Source of the DNA: Streptococcus sanguinis
GTDB taxonomy: Bacteria; Bacillota; Bacilli; Lactobacillales; Streptococcaceae
Direction of reading: 5' to 3'
NCBI RefSeq assembly: GCF_900635155.1
Contig: NZ_LR134002.1
Coordinates: 1,550,001 to 1,614,000 of the forward strand
Length of the DNA stretch: 64,000 bases
Shown: positions 9,803 to 28,070 of the stretch, piece after piece
How the letters are laid out: every line of letters starts with the position of its first letter
Numbering within the stretch: position 1 is the stretch's first letter
Made by a program: the position numbers and the translations under genes
Notes under the pieces: generated by a model
Told to the model about the DNA's origin: nothing
The model's input: only the letters and a program-made list of their open reading frames with translations
Databases searched by the model: none

Positions 9803-11512
9803 TTATCTAGTCTTCTTTTGAAGAAAGACATAGCTTCCAAAGCCAACTAAGATTGCCAAACCTGCAACTGACAGCCAAAGCGTCGTTTCTTGACCAGTCT
9901 TAGGCAGAACTTTTTTGTTGCCTCCTGCAGCACCTGGATCATTGGTACCATTGTTTGAATTGTTATTTTCATTCCCTGGATTGTCTGCTCCTCCCTTTGG
10001 ATTGTCGGAACTGTTATCAGGGGTATTGGTACCATTGCCTGGGGTATTATTTGGATTATTATTCCCATTATTTGGGTTGTTGTTTGGATTGTTGTTAGGG
10101 TTATTGTTAGGGTTATTGTTTGGATTGTTATTATTTCCAGGGTTAGGTGGCTGAACTGCCTTGCCTGGATCATCACCTCTATAGGTATTGGTAAAGACAG
10201 GATCCAAATCATATTTAACAGAGCCCAAAAACTCACCATTCACATCTTTAACAGTAACTGTCAGCTGAGCTTCCTTGTCATCATAGATGTAGTTAGCATC
10301 ATTGCCCGGAATTTCCTTAATGCTGTAGCGGTAGTCACCAGCTGCATTATAGTTCAAGGCTTTGAAATTGATAGAACCATCAGCTTCATTGGTAGCTGTT
10401 TGAAGTAAAACACCGTTTTCGTCAAAGAGACCAAAGGTAAATTGACCCTTCTCTAACACTTTATTAACAAGTTTTTTCTGTGCCTGAATCTTCACATCTT
10501 TTGCTAGCACAGCGCTTCCTTTACCAAAGCCCTCTTCCAAGCGGACTGACTTAGTAATAGTACGCTCTGGGAATCCTTTAGCTGTCCATGATAACTTGTT
10601 ATTAACCACATCGCCCACTTTTGTACCTTCTGGTACGCGAGTAGAGTACTCGATGTACATTGGCCAGTTATAGTTATCACCAAAGTTGATGGTAAAACCG
10701 TTAGCATCGCCATTAGCGTTTTGGGTTAGGACTGCTTTGTTAGTAAAGTTATCAGCAACAGGCAGCGTCAGGATATGAGCTTCATTGCGGATACCACCAG
10801 CAACTGGAGCATAACGAACTGCCCGCAGCGTACCAGGAACCAAGGTCAGACCATCACCAAAGGTGTCTGAAATCACCATGTTGCGAAGCATGTCCTGTCT
10901 TGCATTCAGGATAATGCGCCATTTAACAATACTCGGATCAGTGCTGTCCTGGTAACCATATTTCATTTCATACTCACCAGCAGTTCCTTCTTCTTTCTGG
11001 TATTGGAAAGAAAAGTCTGTCTGGCCAAATTTGAAGGCAACTGGACCTGTTTCTTTAACTTTTTCGTTATTGATACGAACATTAAAGCCCAAAGATAGCT
11101 CTTTCTTTTGGGTATAGTTTGTAAAGTAGTTACTGAAAGTCACTGTAACTGACTGAGTCGCCGGGTCAGTTTGAGCTGTACCGACTAACTCTCCCGTATG
11201 ATTAACAACATCATAGACATCGAAGTTTAAGGCAGTAATCAGACTTAATTCTTCCGGAAGTTTAAAAGTCAGGGTATCCCCTTCAGCGATCGTTTGAGCC
11301 GCAGGAAATGTGAAGTTGGTTGTTACAGACAAGGTTTCATTAGTCTTAACAGTTGAGTCACTTGTTAATGGCTCACCATCCTTAGTAATGCTGGTTTGCT
11401 GACTGTATTCAGTTACTTCAGAAGCCTGAGTTCGAGCAGCAAAACCTAAACCTGTAACAATAGCTGTTAATAAGATAAGAATTTTAAAAATAATTGTATT
11501 TTTATTTTTCAT
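9803..11512 (-). CDS. LPXTG cell-wall-anchored adhesin with collagen-binding-like and pilin isopeptide domains
   Basis: 569 aa. A signal peptide covers residues 1-30 (KILILLTAIVTGLGFA, cleavage near TQAS). Residues about 31-325 look like the two-subdomain adhesin fold of Cna/SdrG-type collagen-binding proteins (GDTLTFKLPEEL, YWP-type strands). Residues about 335-448 are a FctA-like pilin isopeptide domain: Lys in QAQKKLVNK, Glu in YSIKEIPG and Asn in VFTNTYR would form the internal cross-link. An Asn/Pro-rich spacer follows, then the sortase signal LPKTG (536-540), a membrane helix and KKTR. Expected to be anchored to peptidoglycan by sortase A. Binding to host or bacterial ligands is inferred; the ligand is unknown. 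Confidence 0.92.
   Translation of the reverse strand: MKNKNTIIFKILILLTAIVTGLGFAARTQASEVTEYSQQTSITKDGEPLTSDSTVKTNETLSVTTNFTFPAAQTIAEGDTLTFKLPEELSLITALNFDVYDVVNHTGELVGTAQTDPATQSVTVTFSNYFTNYTQKKELSLGFNVRINNEKVKETGPVAFKFGQTDFSFQYQKEEGTAGEYEMKYGYQDSTDPSIVKWRIILNARQDMLRNMVISDTFGDGLTLVPGTLRAVRYAPVAGGIRNEAHILTLPVADNFTNKAVLTQNANGDANGFTINFGDNYNWPMYIEYSTRVPEGTKVGDVVNNKLSWTAKGFPERTITKSVRLEEGFGKGSAVLAKDVKIQAQKKLVNKVLEKGQFTFGLFDENGVLLQTATNEADGSINFKALNYNAAGDYRYSIKEIPGNDANYIYDDKEAQLTVTVKDVNGEFLGSVKYDLDPVFTNTYRGDDPGKAVQPPNPGNNNNPNNNPNNNPNNNPNNNPNNGNNNPNNTPGNGTNTPDNSSDNPKGGADNPGNENNNSNNGTNDPGAAGGNKKVLPKTGQETTLWLSVAGLAILVGFGSYVFLQKKTR
10047..10137 (-). repeat. 12-bp tandem repeat coding for an Asn-Asn-Asn-Pro spacer
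   Basis: A short period-12 repeat encoding NNNP units (NNPNNNPNNNPNNNPNNNPN) in the wall-spanning stalk of the LPXTG protein. Copy number probably varies between strains by slippage and would change stalk length without changing frame. Confidence 0.8.
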
Positions 11513-16265: not shown

Positions 16266-17050
16266 TGGTATACAGATCCCTCACTTCTCCTGAAAACCAG
16301 GATTACCGTTACGATATTAAAATTGCTCACCTCTATGGCAATCTCATGAATACCTACGGCGATAACGGCAATGTTCTCATGCTCAAGTATGTGGCTGAAA
16401 AGTTAGGCGCTAGGGTTGAAGTCGATATCGTCTCTCTAGAAGATGACTTTGACAAGGACAGCTACGACATCGTCTTCTTTGGCGGAGGCCAAGACTATGA
16501 GCAAACGATCGTGGCTCGTGACTTACCAACTAAAAAAGAAGCTTTGGAAAGCTTTATCAATGAAAACGGCGTAGTGCTAGCTATCTGCGGTGGCTTCCAA
16601 CTCTTAGGCCAGTACTATATCGAAGCTTCTGGCCGACGAATCGAAGGCCTGGGCATCATGGGCCACTACACCCTCAACCAGACCAAAAACCGCTATATCG
16701 GCGACATTAAAATTCATAATGATGAATTCGATGAAACCTACTACGGCTTTGAAAATCACCAAGGACGGACTTTCCTCTCCGACGATGAAAAACCTCTGGG
16801 CAAAGTCGTCTATGGAAATGGCAACAACCAAGAAGACAGCAATGAAGGCGTCCACTATAAGAATGTCTTTGGCTCTTACTTCCATGGCCCCATTTTGTCC
16901 CGCAATGCCAACTTGGCCTACCGTCTGGTGACCACTGCTCTGAAAAACAAATATGGCTCAGATATTAAACTGGCTGCTTATGAAGATATCCTTGCCCAAG
17001 AAATCCCAGAAGAATACGGAGATATCAAAAGCAAGGCTGAGTTTGAATAA
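16265..17050 (+). CDS. gatD: Lipid II isoglutaminyl synthase, glutaminase subunit GatD
   Basis: 261 aa, class I glutamine amidotransferase (CobB/CobQ-like). The nucleophile is Cys 108 in [11 protein letters not shown]; the catalytic His is in GSYFHGPIL. It supplies ammonia to MurT. It starts inside the murT stop codon, so translation is coupled. A terminator follows at 17057. All expected motifs are present. Confidence 0.96.
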
Positions 17051-17056
17051 GACAAA

Positions 17057-17087
17057 ACTAGGTTGGATTTTCCAGCCTAGTCTTTTT
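17057..17087 (+). terminator. Terminator after gatD
   Basis: ACTAGGTTGG pairs with CCAGCCTAGT around a 5-nt loop, followed by CTTTTT. Confidence 0.85.
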
Positions 17088-17106
17088 GTATTCTATTTTG
17101 ATAGAG

Positions 17107-17245
17107 CTAGGAAATCAAAGCCAATCCCATCACTCCGAAACCAAGCAGGAGTAAGGAAAGGGTGTGGACACTCGGCAGAAGCGTCATCAGAAAGGTGCAG
17201 GAGGCATGAAAAGAATTGCCAGCGTGTAGATCGTTGAGAAAACTC
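17107..17245 (-). pseudogene. Remnant of a membrane-protein C-terminus
   Basis: On the minus strand one frame reads GRVFSTIYTLAILFMPPAPF and stops, and the next frame continues LMTLLPSVHTLSLLLLGFG and ends at TAG (17107-17109). Together they look like two transmembrane helices of a permease-like protein broken by a frameshift. No start codon or ribosome-binding site is seen. It is probably the leftover of a deleted gene at the edge of the accessory cluster. Weak evidence. Confidence 0.35.
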
Positions 17246-17308
17246 GGCCTAGATTCTGCTAAAAGAACTCTATCTACTTATCTCTATTACCCATACCAAT
17301 CGTTCTTT

Positions 17309-18197
17309 TCATCTGTTTCTTAATAACTCCTTATGTTTTTTTAAGTACCTCTTCCCATACCATTCCTCTACGGATTTGCCTTCCCATTCTCGGTATTCTT
17401 CGGAATATTTCCATTTATAGAAGACTTGTAAATAACTAGGAATTTCGATGTAGATTAGCATAGCAATCACAGCAATATTTAGGATAATCCATGTTATCAA
17501 AAGACCTAAGCCTTCCAACAAAGTTGAAAATTTCATGGAAAAACTCTTTATTATAAAGTTTATAATTACTCCAATTCCCAAAAAGCTCATTCCATAAATC
17601 GCTATCTTATTGGCAATTTTGTTGCGAAGAGAAGACCCACTTCCATTACCATACATCAGTTTTTTGAGACTTTCAATTTCAAGGCTAAACATAAAATAGG
17701 CTAATATAGAAATAAAAACAAAAATAGCAGCAACCATCCAAATAGTTAAAGTTGGTAATGACATATCAATGGCTAGCAGGTTAAATTCAAAACTAAGCCA
17801 AATTAAAAATGTGATAACATGAAAATGATAACGATAGGGTAATAAATAATTTCTTTTAATAAACTTTCCAACTAAGACAATAAGTAACCATATAAACAGG
17901 AATAAAACATATATTTCAGCTGACAATAATGGAGTTTTAGATATAGAAACAGCTAAATCTTTTGGGTTAGAATCATGTAGATAAATAGAAATTACTAAAA
18001 GCATAAAATTTAAGCTTATCGGAAATATCAATGTCAGAATAACACTCTGAATTTTTAATCCCATAGAAGGATGGCCTTTTCTATAATACTTTTCTAATTT
18101 GCTATAGACATCTTTTTTCTGATACTGTAAAAAAACCATCATCTTCCAGATTTAAACTTTCTTCAAAACTAGCATTAAAAATAGATTTTTTATCCAT
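17309..18197 (-). pseudogene. Tandem membrane protein, family A copy 1, frameshifted at an A7 run
   Basis: Function unknown. The natural start is the ATG at 18195-18197, which overlaps the stop of the next gene upstream by 8 bp. It encodes MDKKSIFNASFEESLNLEDD, the signature of its paralogs, then goes out of frame at the seven-base run 18129-18135 (T7 in the coding strand) and stops. With one base fewer, the frame joins DGFLQYQKKDVYSKLEKYY and runs on through about six membrane helices to the tail EEYREWEGKSVEEWYGKRY. The downstream 277 codons are open. Its termini are nearly identical to copies 2 and 3, but the middle is diverged. It could be a decayed gene, a slippage switch or a sequence error. 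Confidence 0.7.
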
Positions 18198-19089
18198 AAG
18201 TTTGATTACCAATCTTCTTTTGTAGTAGTTCAGGGTGCTTTTTCAAGTACCTCTTCCCATACCATTCCTCTACGGACTTGCCTTCCCATTCTCGGTATTC
18301 TTCTGGATATTTCCACTTGTAATAGGCTTGGAGAAAATATGGTAAACCTATAAAAACAATTATTGCAATCACCATAATATTAGCAAAGACCCATAGAAGT
18401 AAAAAACCAAATGCTTTCATGGAATTTGAAATATCTACAGTAAAGCTTCCGAAAATATATTTTATAACAATACCAATCCCTAAAATCCCCATGCCGTAAA
18501 TAGAAATCATTTTAGCAATCTTATCACGAAAAGTCACTTGTCTATCCTCATCATAGATAAGCTTTCTTAATCCTGTTAACTCCATACTAAACATAATGTA
18601 AGTGAAGATCATTATTACTCCATATATAGCAATAATTTCCCAAAATGCCAAATTTGCTAATAGAATGTCAAAAACCATTAAATCAATTTCCAATAAAAAC
18701 CAAAGCATAAATGTAAAAACATGAAGCTGATAGCGATATGGTAAAAGATAAGTTCGTTTAGTAAATTTTCCAAGAATGACTAAGAACAGCCAAATAAGAA
18801 GTAAAATCAAAAAAACATTTACAGTTAATGACTCGTGCTTAGATATCGGAAGAGTCAGGGTCTTACTCTCATGAAATTCCATAGATACAACAAGCAACAT
18901 AAAGTTAAATCCAACAGGAAAAATTAACCCTAAAATAAAACTTCTAATTCGAAACCAAAGAGATGCTCTCCCTTTTTTAAAATAGTTAGACGTTTTATCA
19001 TGCTGCTCTTGCTGCAACTTTCGAAACCCATCATCTTCCAGATTTAAACTCTCTTCAAAACTAGCATTAAAAATAGATCTTTCAGTCAT
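18190..19089 (-). CDS. Tandem membrane protein, family A copy 2 (intact)
   Basis: 299 aa, the only intact copy of the three adjacent ones. Starting at ATG 19087-19089 (8-bp overlap with the stop of copy 3), it begins MTERSIFNASFEESLNLEDD. A charged cytoplasmic stretch follows, then about six membrane helices (residues roughly 50-255), and a conserved cytoplasmic tail WKYPEEYREWEGKSVEEWYG continuing KRYLKKHPELL. No catalytic motif, signal peptide or transporter signature is visible. I do not recognise the family. A five-codon upstream extension (MVIKV) is possible but less likely given the overlap pattern shared across the cluster. Confidence 0.75.
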   Translation of the reverse strand: MTERSIFNASFEESLNLEDDGFRKLQQEQHDKTSNYFKKGRASLWFRIRSFILGLIFPVGFNFMLLVVSMEFHESKTLTLPISKHESLTVNVFLILLLIWLFLVILGKFTKRTYLLPYRYQLHVFTFMLWFLLEIDLMVFDILLANLAFWEIIAIYGVIMIFTYIMFSMELTGLRKLIYDEDRQVTFRDKIAKMISIYGMGILGIGIVIKYIFGSFTVDISNSMKAFGFLLLWVFANIMVIAIIVFIGLPYFLQAYYKWKYPEEYREWEGKSVEEWYGKRYLKKHPELLQKKIGNQTYG

Positions 19090-19994
19090 AACTTTGATTA
19101 CCAATCTTCTTTTGTAATAGTTCAGGGTGCTTTTTCAAGTACCTCTTTCCATACCATTCCTCTATAGACTTTCCTTCCCATTCTCGATATTCTTCGGGAT
19201 ATTTCCATTTGTAGTATCCTTGAAGCATAAAGGGAAATATCAGAAAACTTTCTAGCAGGACAAATAACAAGTCACCTACAAACCAAATAAGCAAAACACC
19301 TAGGGTATCCAACATAAGGCCTACCGCATGGGGAAAAATCAACCTAAAAATGAGTAAAACTACAATAATTCCAAAACCATATTTGAAGATAAATGCAGCC
19401 ACTCTATGAAACAGTCTCCCCAGCCAGTCTTGTTCGTCTTCTTGTTTACCATATAACAATGACAGTAACGAAGTTCGCCTGCTTCGGACGAAAATGCAGC
19501 ACATAAGCCCAAACAAAACAAAGAAAAGGATTGCCCCTGTCGCTTTTATCGTACTATACAAAAATGTCAGTAAAAATAGATTCATTTCGACAATCAACCA
19601 AATTAGGAATGTGACAAACATATGAAATTGTCCCCTGTATATAAGGATATACTGCTGAGAAAAGCGTTTCCCAAAAAGAATCAGTAAAAGCCACAAGAGT
19701 AAGAAAATAATAAATAGCCAGTTGGGGCAAGAAATTATGAACCGGTGGCAATAGAGGAGAATCTTCAGAATGATGATAAAGGTAATTTGTTAAGGTTGTT
19801 ATAAGCCAATTGGGACCGATTATGAAAACAATTGTTAAAACAGTCAACCATACATACGATTTTGTTGTACCTCTGTATTTCTCTTTTTCTTGAGCAGATG
19901 CTAAATTTTTATTGGAAAATTCTCCAGAAATGGGATCGTCCTGTAAATTCAAACTCTCTTCAAAACTAGCCTTAAAAATAGATCTTTTCTTCAT
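19082..19994 (-). pseudogene. Tandem membrane protein, family A copy 3, frameshifted near a G4 run
   Basis: It starts at ATG 19992-19994 with MKKRSIFKASFEESLNLQDD and runs in one frame to about 19730. The family pattern then continues in another frame (WLLLILFGKRF onward) to the tail EEYREWEGKSIEEWYGKRY. Removing one base at the four-base run 19724-19727 joins LPNWLFIIFLLLW, which aligns with VFLILLLIWLFL of copy 2. As it stands the protein is cut after about 95 residues, before most membrane helices. The ribosome-binding site is weak. Function unknown. Confidence 0.7.
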
Positions 19995-20139
19995 TTTTTT
20001 ACCCAAAATACCAATACATTTCCCATTCCATAGGATGTCTAGAAAATGCTGCCATAACGACCACACCTTCATAAGTGTTCAAATAATCTTTCACTTTGGA
20101 ATTCATTACAGCAAAAATTTTCAAAACTCATACTTTCTA

Positions 20140-20799
20140 TTATGAAATTTTATTATATCTATTCTTTCTATATCGTTCAACAGCCATAAACCATCGAACC
20201 ATATTGTTTTGCCATAATACTAAAGCTCCTACAGCTGTCATAATACCTATAAAGCTTAAAGTGATAATCTCACTGCCGATAGGTGTACCTATCATATTAA
20301 AAACTAGAATAGATATAACTAAAATTGGACTAATCAGCCCCATTAAAGCCATAGATACTGTGAAAACCCAAGCAACTATCTTCTTACCAAGCGTAACCTT
20401 CTTATCGCTAAAATTACCCCAAATAAGATTAGTATCAACTGCCCGTCTAAAATTTTCTTTACTGGTTGGCTGTGCCGACTTAACATTCTTATAAAGGGCT
20501 CGCTCTACTATCACCAGCAAAAGAGTACCTTCCAGAAACCAAACAATTAGAAAATAAACCAAAGTACCATAGCCATAGATACCACCGAACAATCGTGTCT
20601 CAGGAAAAAGCTGCATCACACCACTAAAAGCAATCAGAAATGATGTAATTAAAATGATTTGTTTCCGATTGCCACGCGATGCCTCTGTATTCAATAGTTT
20701 ACTTTTAGGAGCTGCTAAGGGATCTCTTGGCTTTTCTACATTTACATAAATAGCCTGACCATCACTTTCCCCTATATAAATAACTCTCCTAAAAAACAT
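20140..20799 (-). CDS. Tandem membrane protein, family B copy 1
   Basis: 219 aa from ATG 20797-20799, which has AGAGAGGAAAG upstream (an in-frame start 10 codons earlier lacks one). A short beta-rich N-terminus (VIYIGESDGQAIYV, then APKSKLLNTE) is followed by four membrane helices. The loop after helix 2 has ERALYKNVKSAQPT, and the C-terminus has QNNMVRWF. The same elements occur in copies 2 and 3 of family B at 23823 and 24579. Function unknown. Confidence 0.75.
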   Translation of the reverse strand: MFFRRVIYIGESDGQAIYVNVEKPRDPLAAPKSKLLNTEASRGNRKQIILITSFLIAFSGVMQLFPETRLFGGIYGYGTLVYFLIVWFLEGTLLLVIVERALYKNVKSAQPTSKENFRRAVDTNLIWGNFSDKKVTLGKKIVAWVFTVSMALMGLISPILVISILVFNMIGTPIGSEIITLSFIGIMTAVGALVLWQNNMVRWFMAVERYRKNRYNKIS

Positions 20800-20856
20800 C
20801 CTTTTTCTTTCCTCTCTATATACCAACAATTAAAACAAGTCAGGTTGATGTAGTTC

Positions 20857-21839
20857 TCAGTGCTTTCTTGTCTTCCTCTTTTTAAACTGATAATAAATAA
20901 AACTCCCCGTAGCATCCAAGACAATCGTATAGCCAAAAATTCTTATAAACCATATTAACCAAATCGGACCATTTTCAGCATCTATATTCAATAATTGCAA
21001 ACAAGCAATAATGCCAAGAAATAGAATAATCTCTGTAATCAAACGGGGTTTAGTCTTTTTGAAATCTAAAGTTTTAAAAAAACTCTGATTATATAATTCT
21101 TCTGGTACTTCTTCCCAGTAAGTCTTATCTTTCGCTCTCAACTTAAGTAAATATCCAACTTCGACAATGAGTCTCGAGAAAGCTGATATAAACACTATAT
21201 TACCCAAAATACCTAATATTTGCTTAGAATAGCCGGATATCCAACCAACCATGACTCCCCCTAGCAAGGTAGCTCCTAGAATTATCCAGATAGAGGGTTT
21301 ACTATAGACACTCGAAGCAGCAACATAGTTGGCATTAGTCCGTTGTTCGGAAAAGCCTGTTTCTAATTGTTTCTTTAACCATCTTACATTATAAAGTATT
21401 AAACCCAAAAAGAGAAGCAGAGAACTAAGCCCAAAAATAATGGTATATATAAAAGAATTTTTCAATAAATTATTAGTGAGTACAACAATAACATAATCTG
21501 TTAAAACTAATGACAGAAGTAATCCATTAATCATGGCAAAAAGCATGGCTGTGCCAAAAAATTGATGCCTATAAATCAATTTTTGATTGAAAGAAATAAC
21601 TTGACATATCAGCATAAAGAGAAGGTACACACAAAAAATAGGAATATAAGATTAGAAAAAGGATTCAATTTGAGTTGATCTTTTATAAAATAATACACAT
21701 GCGACAAGGCAATACCTAAGACAAATATACCGGACCAGACCAAACCAAGCATACCAACGGAAGCGCGTGTCGTGCCTAACCCTTGAAAATAGTCCTTGTT
21801 TAATTCTTCTGGTCCTAAATCTGTCCTCTTTTTATTCAT
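20857..21839 (-). pseudogene. Tandem membrane protein, family C, frameshifted at an A6 run
   Basis: It starts MNKKRTDLGPEELNKDYFQG at ATG 21837-21839 behind GAGGT. The first frame ends after 76 residues (LIFLFFVCTFSLC). Adding one base at the six-base run 21633-21638 restores a single protein of about 327 residues (LFFCVYLLFMLICQV at the joint) with about eight membrane helices and a basic tail KKRKTRKH. Each half is open, so only one event is needed. No known family recognised. Confidence 0.7.
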
Positions 21840-21965
21840 TTTTTACCTCAAAAAATTTGGCCTCTGTATCTCTAAAAGCAATTTGTTAATTCTGCTCCAC
21901 ATACAGACATTACATGGGTTGATCTAAAATGGTTTATGATAATCGAATGAATTGGTAACATAGGG

Positions 21966-22750
21966 TTATAACTTCCTATTTTCATTTTCTATTTTAGCAT
22001 TTAATTCATCTATAATTTTTTTATTTATAACAGTCTTAACGATTCCATTCCATATAATATTTGGAACCAAAGAAAGTAATATAGCAAGTACAACTAATTT
22101 CTCCATAAACTCTATGATTGTACTTGGCATAAAATAAAACCAATAAACAAAAGGAATAACTGCAAAGACAATAAACAAAACTACTAAGATGTTTGCAAGA
22201 TAAGGTGTTTTTATCTGTTTCAAAACATCATTATGTTTTAAAGTTATATCGTGTGTAACTTCAAAATATTCTTTCTGGACAGTCCTACTGGGAGCTTCAA
22301 TCAATGGATAAGTATTTCTAATTGAAACCATCCATAATTCAAAAGATATAAACAACCAAATTCCTAAGATCATCGGTAACAGAAAAGAAAAAAGACCGAA
22401 CTCAATTTGAGGAACAATGTAATTATCAGAATAACTAGCGATAAAAGCCATAATCGGGACAATCAAAAATGGCGAAGACATCCAAGTTAATCTGCCAATT
22501 TTCTTAGCTATGTTTTGGTGATTCCTTATGCTTTCCTTATCGAGCTTTCTCCAAATAATATCTCCTGATAAAAGATAGTACTCTGCAGCTAGGCCTGTTC
22601 CTTTTAAATTAGTCCCCATGCCATTATCAACAGCAAATAATAATCTTATCTTTTTCACAATGGACAGCTCCATATTAGCTTTTTAAACTTAATATTTCGA
22701 TCTAGTTCTTTATTTCCATCACTTCCTAAAGGTAATAATTTTTTACTCAT
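21966..22750 (-). pseudogene. Tandem membrane protein, family D, frameshifted at an A5 run
   Basis: The true start is probably ATG 22748-22750, which overlaps the stop of the upstream gene by 8 bp as elsewhere in this cluster. It encodes MSKKLLPLGSDGNKELDRNI and stops after about 31 residues. One extra base at the run 22680-22684 would join it to the 235-codon frame that follows (MELSIVKKIRLLFAVDNG). That frame has four hydrophobic segments and a Lys/Glu/Asn-rich tail. Alternatively, 21966-22673 is translated alone from its own ATG. Function unknown. Confidence 0.6.
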
Positions 22751-23648
22751 TTTCTTCTCCATTTTCTTGTGTTGTTTCTTCTTCTAGCTTGCCGCTTTTG
22801 ACTAACTTTTTATAATATCGTTTGCTATACCATTCTCTATCTGAAATCTTTAAGTAGGATTTATACTCTTCCGGGTACTTGTAGATATAATAGGCTTGAA
22901 AAATATGCACATTCATCATAAAAGCTATAAAATAGGCACCAATGACAAACCAAACCACCAAAAATAATCCAAAAATATAGAAATAAAAAAGGACCGGTAG
23001 TTGATTCATTAGATGATAGAACAGTGATACCGGAAAGAGAACTACCATCGTTCTGACTGTAATCATCATCACTTTCTTAAGGATTGACTTTTCCTCTTCA
23101 TCATTCAGTCTCCGTTTCAAATTCTGGATACTATTCATAATAATCCAGAAAAAGAGGCCGATTCCTAAGACGAGCTGAAACCAGAATCCCACCACTGTAT
23201 AAGCATCGTAAGCTACTGCACTAGCAAAGTATAACCCTGATATAAAAGCACAAACTGACATTGAAAAATAAAAAGGAAAATAGGTCCAAATCTGACTGCT
23301 CAAGCGTTTCTTGGGCCAAAAAACAGGGATAGAACCAAAAAGGAAAGTTAGATAGAAAACTATACTGATTGGTCGCATTATTTGCCCAATTGTGTGAAAC
23401 AAAGAAACCGATTGATGAGAAAGATAGTGTACTTCTCCACTTTGACCTACACTACTTGGCAAAGCAATTAATAGAAAGTAAACCATAATTCCAAAAAAGA
23501 TAAATATGCAAAACACGACCGTAAACAAGCGATTGATGATCCCCATATGAATAGGATTTGGCATACCGGCTGTTAAGGCAAACTTTCCGTTCGTTACGAT
23601 TTTCTTACTTCGTTCAAAGTCTGCACCGAAAATACTGATTTTTTTCAT
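22743..23648 (-). CDS. Tandem membrane protein, family A-like (divergent copy 4)
   Basis: 301 aa. The N-terminus MKKISIFGADFERSKKI echoes the SIF-A-FE-S signature of copies 1-3. About six membrane helices follow, and the tail YIYKYPEEYKSYLKISDREW continuing YSKRYYKK keeps the KYPEEY...EWY.KRY pattern. The last residues are acidic (EEETTQENGEENE). Intact, and more diverged than copies 1-3, so the duplication is older. Its stop overlaps the family D start by 8 bp. Function unknown. Confidence 0.75.
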   Translation of the reverse strand: MKKISIFGADFERSKKIVTNGKFALTAGMPNPIHMGIINRLFTVVFCIFIFFGIMVYFLLIALPSSVGQSGEVHYLSHQSVSLFHTIGQIMRPISIVFYLTFLFGSIPVFWPKKRLSSQIWTYFPFYFSMSVCAFISGLYFASAVAYDAYTVVGFWFQLVLGIGLFFWIIMNSIQNLKRRLNDEEEKSILKKVMMITVRTMVVLFPVSLFYHLMNQLPVLFYFYIFGLFLVVWFVIGAYFIAFMMNVHIFQAYYIYKYPEEYKSYLKISDREWYSKRYYKKLVKSGKLEEETTQENGEENE

Positions 23649-23822
23649 TTTTAATCTCCTAATTTCATCTTATCTAAAGTCTAACTTCGTTTAAGATCTT
23701 CCATTTGAGGATAGGAAACAAATTATGTTACCAAACAGCAACTGTCGCAACAACTACTCCTCGCTCCGTTAAAGATATAGCACTTGCTTTCTGCGATTCG
23801 ACTGTTTTTACCTAACACCTAG

Positions 23823-24488
23823 TTACAAGTTTCTCTCTGTTTCTTTCTTAAACAGGATTTTCCCTTGACTGTATAGCTTCATAATCTTTACAAAACGAAC
23901 TGAATTGTTTTGATTATAAAACAAAAAGGGCGTATAGAACATAAATCCGGCTATCCAAAAACCGTAATTAGTCTCAATAGGCTGACCAAACTTTTGAATA
24001 TAGCCGTAAAAAACAAATACTAAATATATATCAGCAGCAATTATTATGTAGCGAGCAATTCGATAGATTGTTGAAGATGCTTTAGCTGGATCAAAATTCT
24101 CGTCACCCACCATCAAATTATGGGAAGCTGCATAATAAAACACCTTCTCCGTTGTCGGCTGAGCCTTGCGAACATTTTTATAAAGCCCTCGCTCAAGAAT
24201 AGCGACCATTAACAGAAACTCAGCCAACCAAAATAGTAGGATATAGGTCAAACTGGTCCAGTTATAGACACCAATGGACAAGACTGAAAAGAATCCAAAG
24301 ACCGCAGGTCCACCTGCCATCAATAGAATCACCAATTCAGGAATATAGGCATTGGTCTTACGCGCTCCTTCCGTATTGAGCAGGAAACTTTTGGGAGCTG
24401 CTAAAGCCTCTCCAGTCTGCTGGTCATAATAGACCGCCTGACCATCACACTCGCCAATAAATACTCGACGACGTCTGAGAAAAAACAT
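23823..24488 (-). CDS. Tandem membrane protein, family B copy 2
   Basis: 221 aa. MFFLRRRRVFIGECDGQAVY starts a short N-terminal domain ending APKSFLLNTEGARK. Four membrane helices follow, with LERGLYKNVRKAQPTT after helix 2 and YNQNNSVRFVKIMKLY near the end. It shares all conserved blocks with copies 1 and 3. The bases just before its start are almost the same as those before copy 3, a sign of recent duplication. Intact. Function unknown. Confidence 0.75.
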   Translation of the reverse strand: MFFLRRRRVFIGECDGQAVYYDQQTGEALAAPKSFLLNTEGARKTNAYIPELVILLMAGGPAVFGFFSVLSIGVYNWTSLTYILLFWLAEFLLMVAILERGLYKNVRKAQPTTEKVFYYAASHNLMVGDENFDPAKASSTIYRIARYIIIAADIYLVFVFYGYIQKFGQPIETNYGFWIAGFMFYTPFLFYNQNNSVRFVKIMKLYSQGKILFKKETERNL

Positions 24489-24578
24489 TCTAACCTCTTT
24501 CTAATTACTTATTGATGTTCTGTTACCAAACTTTATAATCTCTACTGCTTCACTCACTTTTATTCAATTTCAAATCAG

Positions 24579-25340
24579 CTAAGATCCAGCTTTATAATCA
24601 TGTAGCTCTTTTGTCACGATAGCTCCATCTGGTCCAACACTCACTTCTAGATAGACATCTGGATCGTCATCAGCTCTACATATCACACTAATTTTCCCCT
24701 CCTCAAACCGTTGTGACAATTTCAAGATTCTAACAAAGTAATTTTGATTGAACGCAACAAAAGCAATTCCCAACAAAAGACCTGCAAATATAATTTTAAA
24801 AATCTCTCCTCCAATCGGTTGCCCCAACAAGTCTTTAAAGCGGGAAATAAAATCATAGACATAGTAGAAACCTACTGCAGGAATAGTAAATAAGAGTGCA
24901 TTAAAATATAAAAAAGCACCTTTACTAAAACCTTTTTCCGTCTTTTCCTCTTCGTCTTGATTTTCGTCATCCGGATAAATCATAGTAGTCAGACAAACTG
25001 TTTGAGTAGTCACTTGAGCTATATTGACATTTCTATACAAGGCTCGTTCTACAAGGAGAGTGACAAAAGCAAACTCTGCTATCCAGATAAGAATAACACT
25101 CCAAAAAGTAGTCATGCTATAAGTTCCTTGTAAAAATAGACTAAAGAAGGAAGAAATGCCACTTCCGCTAGCTATAAAGAGAACAACTAATAGAGGAATA
25201 TGTCGATTCATCTTATTTGACTTCTCTGTATCTAATAGTTTACTCTTTGGCGCCTCTAAAACTTCGTGGGTCTTACGATCAAAATAAATAGCTTTGTCAT
25301 AATATTGGTTCAAGTAAAAACGACGTCTTCTAAAAAACAT
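24579..25340 (-). CDS. Tandem membrane protein, family B copy 3
   Basis: 253 aa. MFFRRRRFYLNQYYDKAIYF opens the N-terminal domain (APKSKLLDTEKSNK). Four membrane helices carry VERALYRNVNIAQVTT and FNQNYFVRILKLSQRF. It differs from the other copies by an acidic insert (DDENQDEEEKTEKG) in the central loop and an extra soluble tail of about 35 residues (CRADDDPDVYLEVSVGPDG). Intact. Function unknown. Confidence 0.75.
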   Translation of the reverse strand: MFFRRRRFYLNQYYDKAIYFDRKTHEVLEAPKSKLLDTEKSNKMNRHIPLLVVLFIASGSGISSFFSLFLQGTYSMTTFWSVILIWIAEFAFVTLLVERALYRNVNIAQVTTQTVCLTTMIYPDDENQDEEEKTEKGFSKGAFLYFNALLFTIPAVGFYYVYDFISRFKDLLGQPIGGEIFKIIFAGLLLGIAFVAFNQNYFVRILKLSQRFEEGKISVICRADDDPDVYLEVSVGPDGAIVTKELHDYKAGS

Positions 25341-25407
25341 TCTAACCTCTTTCTAATTAACTATATACATATTATTACCAAATCTCTAGATTGAATACCG
25401 GTCAGGA

Positions 25408-25962
25408 TCATTTTGCATTTGCAATATTGGCTAATTTTTCAATTCTATCATGAAGGTCTTCTACATTCAAATTTTCTCGAAGGTATTCACAGAACATTCC
25501 ATTTTCATAAAACATTTGCTCTGAAAGCTGACCTTTTGGTTCATTAGGGCACTGAATCATAACAATACTGAACACTCCACCAGGACCAGTATTCTCGATT
25601 GCATTCCCCTCAAAATGATAGGTGAAAGCCCGAAATTGAGAACCATTATAGTTACCTGAAATTACATAGGCAACTTTTACTAGATTTCCACGACCAAATG
25701 GATAATGACTAAAATTAGCGTATTTTGCTACATAAGGATTCTGAAAAAGTTTCAGTGTTAGGTCATTACTTGTTTTTTGTTTAGAGTAATCTCTGTAATA
25801 ATCATTACCTTGTGCTTTATCAAATTGATAGCCGTGCCTAGAAGCAAAGGCTTGATATTCTTTGTTCTTTTTAGCAGAACGACTAATCGCCCAATAAACT
25901 ATCCAACCTACGAAAGCAAAAATGGCTAGCATTGCAATCATAAATATTACTAGAAAATCCAT
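25408..25962 (-). CDS. Membrane-anchored protein of unknown function, first gene of the tandem cluster
   Basis: 184 aa from the second of two adjacent ATGs, which is better spaced from AGGAG. One N-terminal membrane helix (FLVIFMIAMLAIFAFVGWIV) is followed by a basic stretch (SRSAKKNKEYQAFASRHGYQF) and a soluble domain of about 130 residues (HYPFGRGNLVKVAYVISGNY, then GSQFRAFTYHFEG). The PF..G...V..G.Y.G..F.AF.Y pattern resembles a common class of single-pass proteins of unknown role. It is the most upstream gene of the cluster and the only one with a large soluble domain. Confidence 0.7.
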   Translation of the reverse strand: MDFLVIFMIAMLAIFAFVGWIVYWAISRSAKKNKEYQAFASRHGYQFDKAQGNDYYRDYSKQKTSNDLTLKLFQNPYVAKYANFSHYPFGRGNLVKVAYVISGNYNGSQFRAFTYHFEGNAIENTGPGGVFSIVMIQCPNEPKGQLSEQMFYENGMFCEYLRENLNVEDLHDRIEKLANIANAK

Positions 25963-26100
25963 CATTTTCTCCTATTTTTCTTAAATAAAATGATTCAGTC
26001 ATCAAAATCTTTAGTAGTACGATAACTGAAGCACATTAAATATCAATTTAATTTTCCTGTAGTCTCTAAGAAGCTCATTTCTAACGAAAACTGCGCACTT

Positions 26101-27996
26101 CTACACCTTCTCTGCCAGTTCTTCCCATTCTAGCATGGCTTCTTCTTGGGCAGCGGTCAGCTGGTCGATTTGCTGCTGGCTCTCCATGAGTTCGGCGGCG
26201 TCATTAGTGGCCTCCATGGCTTCCTGAAGCTGACTGATCTGGCTGTCCAAGTCCTCGATTTGCGCTTCCAGTTGTTCGAGGCGACGGGCCAGACGGCGCT
26301 GTTCTTTCTGGTTTTCCTTTTGAAGCTGATAGTCATTGGTAGGTGCTGGCTTGTCAGGACTGGCCTGCTCCGTCTCCTCACGCAAGGCTTCCTGCTCTGC
26401 CTTTTTCTCCAGATAGTAGTCATAATCACCCAGATAAAGGGTGGAGCCTGTCTCAGAGAGCTCGATGATCTGGGTGGCCACTCGATTGATAAAGTAACGG
26501 TCATGGCTGACAAAGAGTAGGGTGCCGTCAAAGTCAATCAGGGCATTTTCCAGCACTTCCTTGCTGTCAATGTCCAGGTGGTTGGTCGGCTCGTCTAGGA
26601 TGAGGAAGTTGTTGTTTTCCATAGACAGCTTGGCTAGAAGCAGCCGCGCCCGCTCTCCTCCCGACAGCATGCCAACAGACTTCTTGACATCGTCTCCCGA
26701 GAAGAGGAAAGCGCCTAAGCGATTGCGAATTTCGACCTCTGGCGTCATCTTGAAGTCATTCCATAGCTCGTCAAGTACTGTATTGCTGGCAGTCAGTTTG
26801 CTCTGGGTCTGGTCATAGTAGCCCACTTCCACGTTAGCTCCCAGCTGCTCCTTGCCTCTGATGAAGGGCACTTGCCCGATTAGTGATTTAATCAAGGTCG
26901 TCTTTCCAATCCCATTTGGTCCGACAATAGCTACCGCATTAAACTTGCGAATATCTAGGTTAATCGGCTCCGACAGGACTTCCTGTCCGAAGCCAATAGC
27001 TGCATCTTCCAAGGTCAGCACAACATTGCCTGAAACCTTATCGGCTTTGAAGGTCATATTAGCCGAGCGACTGCCGGTCTCCGGCTTGTCCAAACGCGCC
27101 ATCTTTTCCAACTGCTTGCGGCGAGACTGAGCCCGCTTAGTAGTGGAAGCCCGAACTAGATTGCGATTGACAAAGTCCTCCAGCGTAGCGATTTCTTTCT
27201 GTTGCTTTTCATAGTTCTTGGCTTCAGTGGCCAGCTTCTGCTCCTTTTGGACCACAAAGCTGGAGTAATTGCCCACATAGCGGTCCAAGGAATGCTTGGT
27301 CAAGTCCAGCGTAATGGTCGCAACCTTGTCTAGGAAATAGCGGTCGTGGCTGACGATAATCAGGGCACCGCTGTAGTTGACTAAGTAAGTCTCTAGCCAG
27401 GCAATGGTCTCGATATCCAGATGATTGGTCGGCTCGTCCAGGACCAGCAGTTCTGGCTTCTCCAAAAGCATCTTAGCCAGAGCCAGACGGGTATTCTGCC
27501 CGCCCGACAGCTCAGAAATCTTCATCTGCCACATGGACTGGTCAAACTTGAAGCCATTCAAAATAGCTCGAATATCCGCCTCGTAGGTAAAACCACCTTT
27601 CTGGCGAAAGTCCTCTGACAGCAGGTCGTACTGGGTCATGAGAGCAGTCAGGTCTTCCCCTGACAATTCTCCCATTTGCAGCTCCATCTGCCGCAAGCGC
27701 TTCTCTTGCTGACGCAGACTATCAAAGACCAGCAGCATCTCGTCGTAGATAGTATTCTCCGACTCAAAGCGGCTGTCCTGTGCCAGATAGGACAGGGACA
27801 AGTCTCGTTTTTTATTGATCTGACCAGAAGTAGGCTCTTCCTCGCCCACCAAAATCTTGAGCAGGGTTGACTTCCCAGCTCCATTTTTACCGACGAGAGC
27901 AATCCGATCACCCTCATCTACCTGCAGGTTAATATTGTCAAAAAGAAGCTCCCCTGCAAAAGAGCGCTCAATCTTGCTTGCTTGTAAAATAATCAT
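26101..27996 (-). CDS. ABC-F family ATPase, YdiF type
   Basis: 631 aa, two ABC domains on one chain and no membrane segment. Walker A motifs are GKNGAGKST and GPNGIGKTT; the signatures are LSGGQNTRLAL and LSGGERARLLL; both LDEPTNHLD Walker B motifs are present. A charged linker (KRAQSRRKQLEKMARLDKP) separates the domains and a coiled coil ends the protein. From memory the closest match is B. subtilis YdiF, a ribosome-acting ABC-F translation factor. Nothing suggests a drug-resistance subtype. The frame extends 10 codons upstream to GTG, but the ATG at 27994-27996 is chosen because the -10 box overlaps the extension. Confidence 0.93.
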   Translation of the reverse strand: MIILQASKIERSFAGELLFDNINLQVDEGDRIALVGKNGAGKSTLLKILVGEEEPTSGQINKKRDLSLSYLAQDSRFESENTIYDEMLLVFDSLRQQEKRLRQMELQMGELSGEDLTALMTQYDLLSEDFRQKGGFTYEADIRAILNGFKFDQSMWQMKISELSGGQNTRLALAKMLLEKPELLVLDEPTNHLDIETIAWLETYLVNYSGALIIVSHDRYFLDKVATITLDLTKHSLDRYVGNYSSFVVQKEQKLATEAKNYEKQQKEIATLEDFVNRNLVRASTTKRAQSRRKQLEKMARLDKPETGSRSANMTFKADKVSGNVVLTLEDAAIGFGQEVLSEPINLDIRKFNAVAIVGPNGIGKTTLIKSLIGQVPFIRGKEQLGANVEVGYYDQTQSKLTASNTVLDELWNDFKMTPEVEIRNRLGAFLFSGDDVKKSVGMLSGGERARLLLAKLSMENNNFLILDEPTNHLDIDSKEVLENALIDFDGTLLFVSHDRYFINRVATQIIELSETGSTLYLGDYDYYLEKKAEQEALREETEQASPDKPAPTNDYQLQKENQKEQRRLARRLEQLEAQIEDLDSQISQLQEAMEATNDAAELMESQQQIDQLTAAQEEAMLEWEELAEKV

Positions 27997-28002
27997 AAGA
28001 CC

Positions 28003-28011
28003 ATTATAGCA
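28003..28011 (-). promoter_or_regulatory. Extended -10 of the ABC-F gene, leaderless layout
   Basis: Minus strand TGCTATAAT (hexamer 28003-28008), 6 nt before the ATG at 27996. No Shine-Dalgarno sequence lies between. Confidence 0.55.
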
Positions 28012-28070
28012 GATTTCCAGAAGCACAGCTATCAGAATTCAAGAGAAAGCAAACTCAGCTCCCCAAAAGA

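Follow-up and report, generated by a model that had tools for sequence, protein, structure and literature searches.

A cluster of polytopic membrane-protein genes in Streptococcus sanguinis as a probable orphan island of type VII secretion immunity genes

Orphan antitoxin islands with polytopic immunity proteins against toxins of the type VII secretion system (T7SS) have been described in staphylococci (PMC12744356), and tandem immunity arrays are known from both staphylococci and streptococci (PMC9484751). For the glycine-zipper LXG toxin EsxX of Staphylococcus, ExiAB (DUF5085) guards the cytosol of the producer and the polytopic proteins ExiC and ExiD guard against extracellular toxin. Both ExiC and ExiD are needed, are said to occur only in Staphylococcaceae and are the part of EsxX immunity found in orphan islands, the cytosolic DUF5085 partner genes staying with the toxin (PMC12744356). 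In S. aureus, tandem and strain-variable polytopic TsaI (DUF443) genes act against TspA, a membrane-depolarising LXG toxin (PMC9484751, PMC10941976). The TipC arrays of streptococci are tandem T7SS immunity genes as well; TipC is membrane-bound, faces outward and guards against a lipid II phosphatase, and Garrett and co-workers reported conserved blocks at both ends of the genes in tipC and esaG arrays (PMC9484751). The glycine-zipper LXG toxin TelE of S. gallolyticus has a six-pass neighbour and a DUF5085 immunity protein, TipE, and only TipE protected in E. coli (PMC10434224). Here we analyse a 64,000-nucleotide stretch of the S. sanguinis genome (the window: assembly GCF_900635155.1, contig NZ_LR134002.1, positions 1,550,001 to 1,614,000 of the forward strand), in which ten adjacent genes, mostly for membrane proteins, very probably constitute an orphan T7SS immunity (antitoxin) island whose polytopic proteins would block LXG glycine-zipper toxins of rivals.

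The ten genes lie on the minus strand (17309-25965 of the window) between gatD, which ends at 17050, and an ABC-F gene (26101-28026). They comprise four genes of family A, three of family B, one each of families C and D, and a gene for a single-helix protein, E (Table 1). A sequence-only reading of the window had delimited the same cluster from gatD to the ABC-F gene, but three of its genes proved to be frame-disrupted. The paralogous families that it had proposed were recovered with phmmer at E values far beyond chance (A1/A2, ~1e-87; A4 against A2 or A3, 7e-7 to 9e-10; B1/B2, ~1e-37 to 1e-36; B2/B3, ~1e-27). The AT-richness that it had noticed was also evident: in 1-kb windows the GC fraction was 0.30-0.39 in the island versus 0.39-0.51 outside, where a single window fell below 0.41. 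The conserved first ~21 residues of A1 are encoded just upstream in a different frame, and D is a single open frame in two close relatives (genomes G161 and G051).

No Pfam model scored above its cut-off with any island protein, nor did any NCBIfam model with the proteins scanned (all except E and the short D piece), which agrees with the earlier remark that none shows a recognised functional motif; no known transporter or enzyme family was found in the same searches. The new element here is families A-D, all four polytopic and none covered by a Pfam or NCBIfam model. DUF443, which the sequence-only reading had offered as an example family, was rejected, with no Pfam match at E <= 1. The island also differs from TsaI arrays in having no adjoining toxin and in mixing several families. 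A1-A3 resemble TipC arrays in their tandem order and in the conserved blocks at both ends; unlike TipC, the proteins of families A-D are multi-pass and linked to glycine-zipper toxins. PHROG 31733, for which PHROG gives no function, matched family A (A4, E 1.6e-12). The sole match of the ten proteins to PADLOC phage-defence models was a weak one (4TM to E, E 0.021), and a plasmid search gave no family B match. The public label 'beta-carotene 15,15'-monooxygenase' on family A homologues looks like a misannotation. A literature search by title and abstract, outside which most subscription journals lay, gave no account of this island or of families A-D. To call the locus an undescribed system, as had been suggested, is nevertheless too strong, because the ExiCD islands and TsaI arrays of staphylococci are of the same kind (PMC12744356, PMC9484751).

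Employing each family as a query, we searched one set of 217 Streptococcus genomes. Matches were found in 52 genomes for A, 51 for B, 9 for C, 21 for D and 9 for E, and in 69, 79 and 20 genomes for LXG, YukC and DUF5085, respectively. With partial or broken rows dropped (31 of 109 for B, 26 of 105 for A, 1 of 24 for D, 2 of 11 for E and 0 of 13 for C), 202 near-full copies were retained (A 79, B 78, C 13, D 23, E 9). Their positions were compared with 150 listed LXG matches; more LXG matches exist, and the resulting counts are lower bounds. At least 34 of the 202 copies (A 10, B 12, C 7, D 4, E 1) follow one of the listed LXG matches on the same strand at a distance of no more than 4.5 kb, against a chance level of ~0.27% per site.

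When 48 sequences were annotated with profiles built from families A-E, the recurring gene order was LXG, then A, B, C or D, then DUF4176. The fullest cassette consisted of a small WXG-like gene, a DUF4176-like gene, the LXG toxin gene, the immunity gene (often in tandem) and a DUF4176 gene. Five island genes (B1, B3, C, A2 and B2) have close toxin-linked copies elsewhere (Table 1; B3's in G162, C's in G214); for the larger D piece, A1 and the larger A3 piece the best identities were 65%, 61% and 41%. In G161, an A-type toxin of 505 amino acids directly precedes the closest toxin-linked copy of A2; this close relative carries an A-type toxin that A2 would answer. In G214, one locus (L122:11646-16205) contains E, an LXG gene, DUF4176, C and a truncated C-type toxin, and looks like an intermediate between a toxin cassette and an island.

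To relate the families to the toxins, 21 toxin-immunity pairs were picked by adjacency. All 21 toxins had at least one GxxxGxxxG run in the C-terminal part, and for all of them the best tail match fell within their own pair group (best cross-group E value 3e-12, B to C). Because these pairs had been chosen by adjacency, we examined 21 independent tail regions outside the queries, with 13 loci excluded because they repeated a region or record already present, with S. suis L158 and L170, nearly identical in appearance, both included, and with a follower call that favours a family A-E open reading frame (ORF) among those starting near the tail end. Behind sixteen tails stood a gene of the expected family (A 7, B 6, C 1, D 2), the lowest identity being 48%; the seventeenth tail at or above this identity is truncated by the end of its locus and belongs to a gene already present in another row. 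The remaining four, weak D-like tails with 39-43% identity, were followed not by D but by an unclassified ORF.

Distances pointed the same way. The distance between immunity proteins correlated with that between toxin tails (A, r 0.84, 11/720 permutations as high; B, r 0.91, 3/5040; C, r 0.54, 3/120) more closely than with that between LXG domains (r 0.00, 0.48 and -0.38, respectively), in sets that were small: 6 of 6 pairs for A, 7 of 8 for B, with two B pairs sharing one genome, and 5 of 5 for C, the two D pairs being left out. By these comparisons, each of families A-D tracks its own subfamily of toxin tails. The unclassified ORF, of 228-247 amino acids, stands behind glycine-zipper toxins at L140:7859-8602, L138:10003-10725, L133:7033-7758 and L123:17894-18580, with a DUF5085 gene further downstream in L138 and L140; it possibly represents another immunity family, outside this island.

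Family D showed a further association. A DUF5085 gene was located ~0.5 kb downstream of all four D genes with an LXG match among those listed, but within 5 kb of none of the 19 other D genes (Fisher p ~1e-4, with counts entered by hand). The tie is tight but not exclusive, because DUF5085 is also near some A and B copies. In typical A, B and C cassettes, DUF4176 adjoins the immunity gene and there is no DUF5085. The D-type cassettes resemble TelE/TipE, where a glycine-zipper LXG toxin has a six-pass neighbour and a DUF5085 protein; D copies in islands, unlike TelE/TipE, are without DUF5085. As with ExiC/ExiD, the cytosolic partner stays with the toxin and the polytopic gene occurs as an orphan. 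Family D is likened to ExiC/ExiD by gene arrangement, not by sequence, and the island differs from the staphylococcal one in having four streptococcal families with one toxin-tail type each.

The sequence-only reading had seen no toxin or secretion gene. This holds within the window, where tblastn of the 21 toxins gave no toxin apart from the scar detected by blastn (described below), but not for the genome; the T7SS locus was missed because it lies outside the window, at ~2.11-2.13 Mb, 0.55 Mb from the island. The locus contains EssC, pieces of YukC/EssB, DUF4176 genes and two B-type cassettes. The family B copies of these two cassettes, with 78% and 72% identity, are located at 2.12 Mb. Immediately preceding the 78% copy is a 460-codon LXG gene (PF04740, E 2.8e-15); its product carries glycine-zipper repeats at the C-terminal end (Pfam Gly-zipper 20.8 of 25 bits, below the cut-off). 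The 72% copy follows the tail of another LXG gene, which extends past the end of the fetched region; this tail piece scored above the Gly-zipper cut-off.

Toxins of the other types were sought in the same genome. Hits of the A-type query were confined to the two B-type toxins, where they reached residue 455 of 505, and to an LXG gene at 1.03 Mb, there within the LXG region only; the D-type query matched only the N-terminal parts of the same three genes' products; and the C-type query gave weak matches, limited to the zipper portion of both B-type toxins. No A-, C- or D-type tail was therefore found in the searches of the host genome, which left aside the tail of the LXG gene at 1.03 Mb, and the A, C and D genes of the island look like orphans. 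DUF5085 had no match in the host genome. The earlier comparison with T7SS-toxin immunity arrays is well supported by these results: judged by homology, genes of families A-D stand directly behind LXG toxins elsewhere, no cognate toxin is apparent at the island, and the gene content differs among the host genome (G000), G161 and G051.

In G161 and G051 the island occupies the same site with different gene content. Compared with G161, the window carries an extra block holding A1-A3 (Table 1), with aligned flanks 92-95% identical. A1-A3 share a conserved start and common 3' ends (113 nucleotides at 81-83%, with 60-nucleotide windows up to 88-96%), and their middles diverge. The degraded membrane-gene remnant reported beside the cluster is probably the stretch at 17054-17260, which is 90.5% identical to a 211-nucleotide stretch over the 3' end of a major facilitator superfamily (MFS) gene in G051. 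The copy-number change and LXG linkage that had been proposed as a check were thus both seen, the former among three relatives and the latter in other genomes.

Between A4 and C there is a short ORF, which we call the scar ORF. By blastn, it matched L137 (42 nucleotides, 86%) and L122 (76 nucleotides, 80%); at the protein level the signals were weak (blastp-short E 0.005 to the L122 tail; DUF4176 profile, 1.4 bits). In cassettes, DUF4176 follows A genes and a C-type toxin tail precedes C genes; had a deletion joined an A cassette to a C cassette, the expected remnant between A4 and C would be a hybrid that starts as DUF4176 and ends as a C-type tail. The scar ORF is a probable deletion junction of this kind, which suggests the loss of a toxin. 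A second, weak DUF4176-like stretch overlaps the end of C at 21887-21988 (tblastn E 0.018; blastn to L122, 56 nucleotides, 80%), an overlap that the intact DUF4176 gene of L122 also shows; it is possibly another cassette scar.

The PHROG match of family A also led to phage records. In S. suis phages MN270278 and KX077896 (L176:4585-6186 and L177:3585-5186), a family A gene followed by a DUF4176-like gene lies beside site-specific recombinases; the gene after A is annotated as EsaC/ESAT-cluster-like, its likeness to DUF4176 being checked for L176, and in L176 the ORF upstream of the A gene matches part of an LXG toxin. Phages are therefore one possible route by which family A spreads.

The sequence evidence strongly supports an immunity function for families A-D. 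From parallels to EsxX and TspA/TsaI, we infer their role as follows. Rival streptococci would secrete LXG toxins by the type VIIb secretion system, and the island proteins, placed in the cytoplasmic membrane, would act at its outer face, where the toxin meets the membrane, capturing or blocking the pore-forming glycine-zipper domain. Families A, B, C and D would each be dedicated to one toxin-tail subfamily. A, B and C may work in a TsaI-like mode, with one membrane protein per toxin, and D in an ExiC/ExiD-like mode, with a cytosolic DUF5085 gene beside its toxin-linked copies. A broader proposal, which we consider evenly poised between right and wrong, is that streptococci have in common a portable repertoire of no fewer than four polytopic immunity families, mutually unrelated, one per zipper-toxin subfamily, in islands sorted by toxin mechanism, reshuffled through scars and conserved ends and carried by phages (in S. 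suis), with membrane immunity acting at the outer face only and D-type producers needing cytosolic DUF5085.

Several observations weigh against an orphan immunity island. No LXG match was near 168 of the 202 copies, among the 150 matches listed. A4 has no close toxin-linked relative, and E had an LXG match nearby in only 1 of 9 copies among the matches listed, where (in G214) the LXG gene is first followed by a 125-amino-acid ORF; E and A4 are weakly tied to toxins. DUF5085 genes are also no more than 5 kb away from 6 of 79 A and 9 of 78 B copies (C, 0 of 13), in some cases in a neighbouring cassette. Four LXG matches were counted in the host genome, one of them not among the matches listed, and the tail of the 1.03-Mb gene stood outside the tail comparison. 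The host YukC/EssB gene is spread over at least three reading frames (L016:13303-14241; G000:C1:2119303-2120241), so the strain may not secrete via its T7SS at present while keeping immunity genes. Finally, multi-pass proteins directly behind TelE and behind BltA of group B Streptococcus gave no protection in assays (PMC10434224, PMC11481500); the comparisons made here did not extend to their membership of families A-D. The TelE test, in which the toxin was made inside E. coli, may have missed the effect of a membrane protein, because the EsxX membrane proteins protected against extracellular toxin (PMC12744356). The failure with BltA is not excused by this compartment argument, because it was seen in a competition assay (PMC11481500).

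These two failures, the position of A-D between LXG and DUF4176 genes, and the description of DUF4176 proteins as LXG chaperones (PMC13253547) would suit accessory or export partners of LXG toxins, such as chaperones or secretion helpers. We consider this unlikely, since A, B and C co-vary with the toxin tail rather than with the LXG domain. In addition, among genomes with a near-full copy, YukC had no match in 13 of 41 for A and in 17 of 42 for B, so that both families are kept without the secretion machinery in some genomes. The G007 genome has a pair of family B genes and a single family A gene among YezG-like, Imm47, DUF6985 and Tdi1_C/GAD-like genes, gene families of which three carry immunity-protein names in Pfam. 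It is very unlikely that the cluster consists of functionless remains of former toxin cassettes, even though A1, A3 and D are frame-disrupted in the assembly and the region is rich in AT and probably bears the scar of a lost toxin: the ratio of nonsynonymous to synonymous substitution rates (dN/dS) of the six intact genes against the two relatives was 0.11-0.35 (E 0.11-0.16, B1 0.16-0.22, A4 0.13-0.15, with B1 and B2 matched to their G161 copies by position), compared with 0.04-0.06 for flanking genes, and that of A2 against toxin-linked copies was 0.14-0.16. Therefore the six intact genes are under purifying selection, and the island has been retained at one site in three relatives. A chance cluster of unrelated small transporters, bacteriocin-immunity proteins or membrane enzymes would account for the multi-pass topology and for the monooxygenase label on A homologues. 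The lack of a Pfam or NCBIfam model above cut-off and an LXG adjacency that is toxin-subfamily specific and far above chance make it hardly credible. Predicted structures of A (predicted local distance difference test score 75, predicted template modelling score 0.72) and B (71 and 0.59) had no informative match in the PDB.

Elsewhere in the window, a probable cell-wall-anchored surface protein with an LPKTG end and a long NNNP repeat tract is encoded at 9803-11512; it is apparently unrelated to the island.

Table 1. Features of the island and its edges, in window coordinates; percentages are identities to the closest toxin-linked copy.
Feature	Position	Strand	Description
E	25408..25965	-	First island gene; 185 amino acids; one N-terminal membrane helix and a soluble domain
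B1	24579..25340	-	Family B immunity candidate; 3-4 membrane helices; 96% to B gene behind B-type toxin tail in G117
B2	23823..24488	-	Family B; 79% to toxin-linked B gene in G117
A4	22743..23648	-	Divergent family A; six helices; best toxin-linked relative 25%
Scar ORF	22655..22750	-	31 codons; DUF4176-like start, C-type toxin-tail-like end
C	21966..22673	-	Family C; ~4 membrane helices; 89% to C gene behind truncated C-type toxin in G214
D	20857..21839	-	Family D; ~7 membrane helices across both pieces (20857-21630 and 21609-21839)
B3	20140..20829	-	Family B; likely start near 20799; 91.5% to B gene behind LXG toxin ORF in G162
A3	19082..20072	-	Family A; two overlapping frames (19082-19696 and 19554-20072)
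A2	18190..19104	-	Family A; 88% to gene directly behind A-type LXG toxin ORF in G161
A1	17309..18142	-	Family A; conserved 5' end out of frame (18143-18197)
A1-A3 block	17050..20130	.	Absent from the same site in G161
MFS remnant	17054..17260	-	Probable 3' end of the MFS transporter gene standing at the equivalent place in G051

On this evidence the island looks like a store of antidotes against the pore-forming toxins of neighbours, several of which are apparently not made by the host itself. At least four membrane-protein families that no Pfam or NCBIfam model covers thereby gain a likely role; two of them, A (52/217) and B (51/217), are present in about a quarter of the sampled Streptococcus genomes. 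If the portable-set and outer-face proposal is true, it explains why tests with toxin made inside E. coli missed membrane immunity to a TelE-like toxin, and the compartment view predicts when membrane proteins of the kind neighbouring TelE and BltA should protect. The genome alone may let one guess which pore-forming T7SS toxins an oral streptococcus resists.

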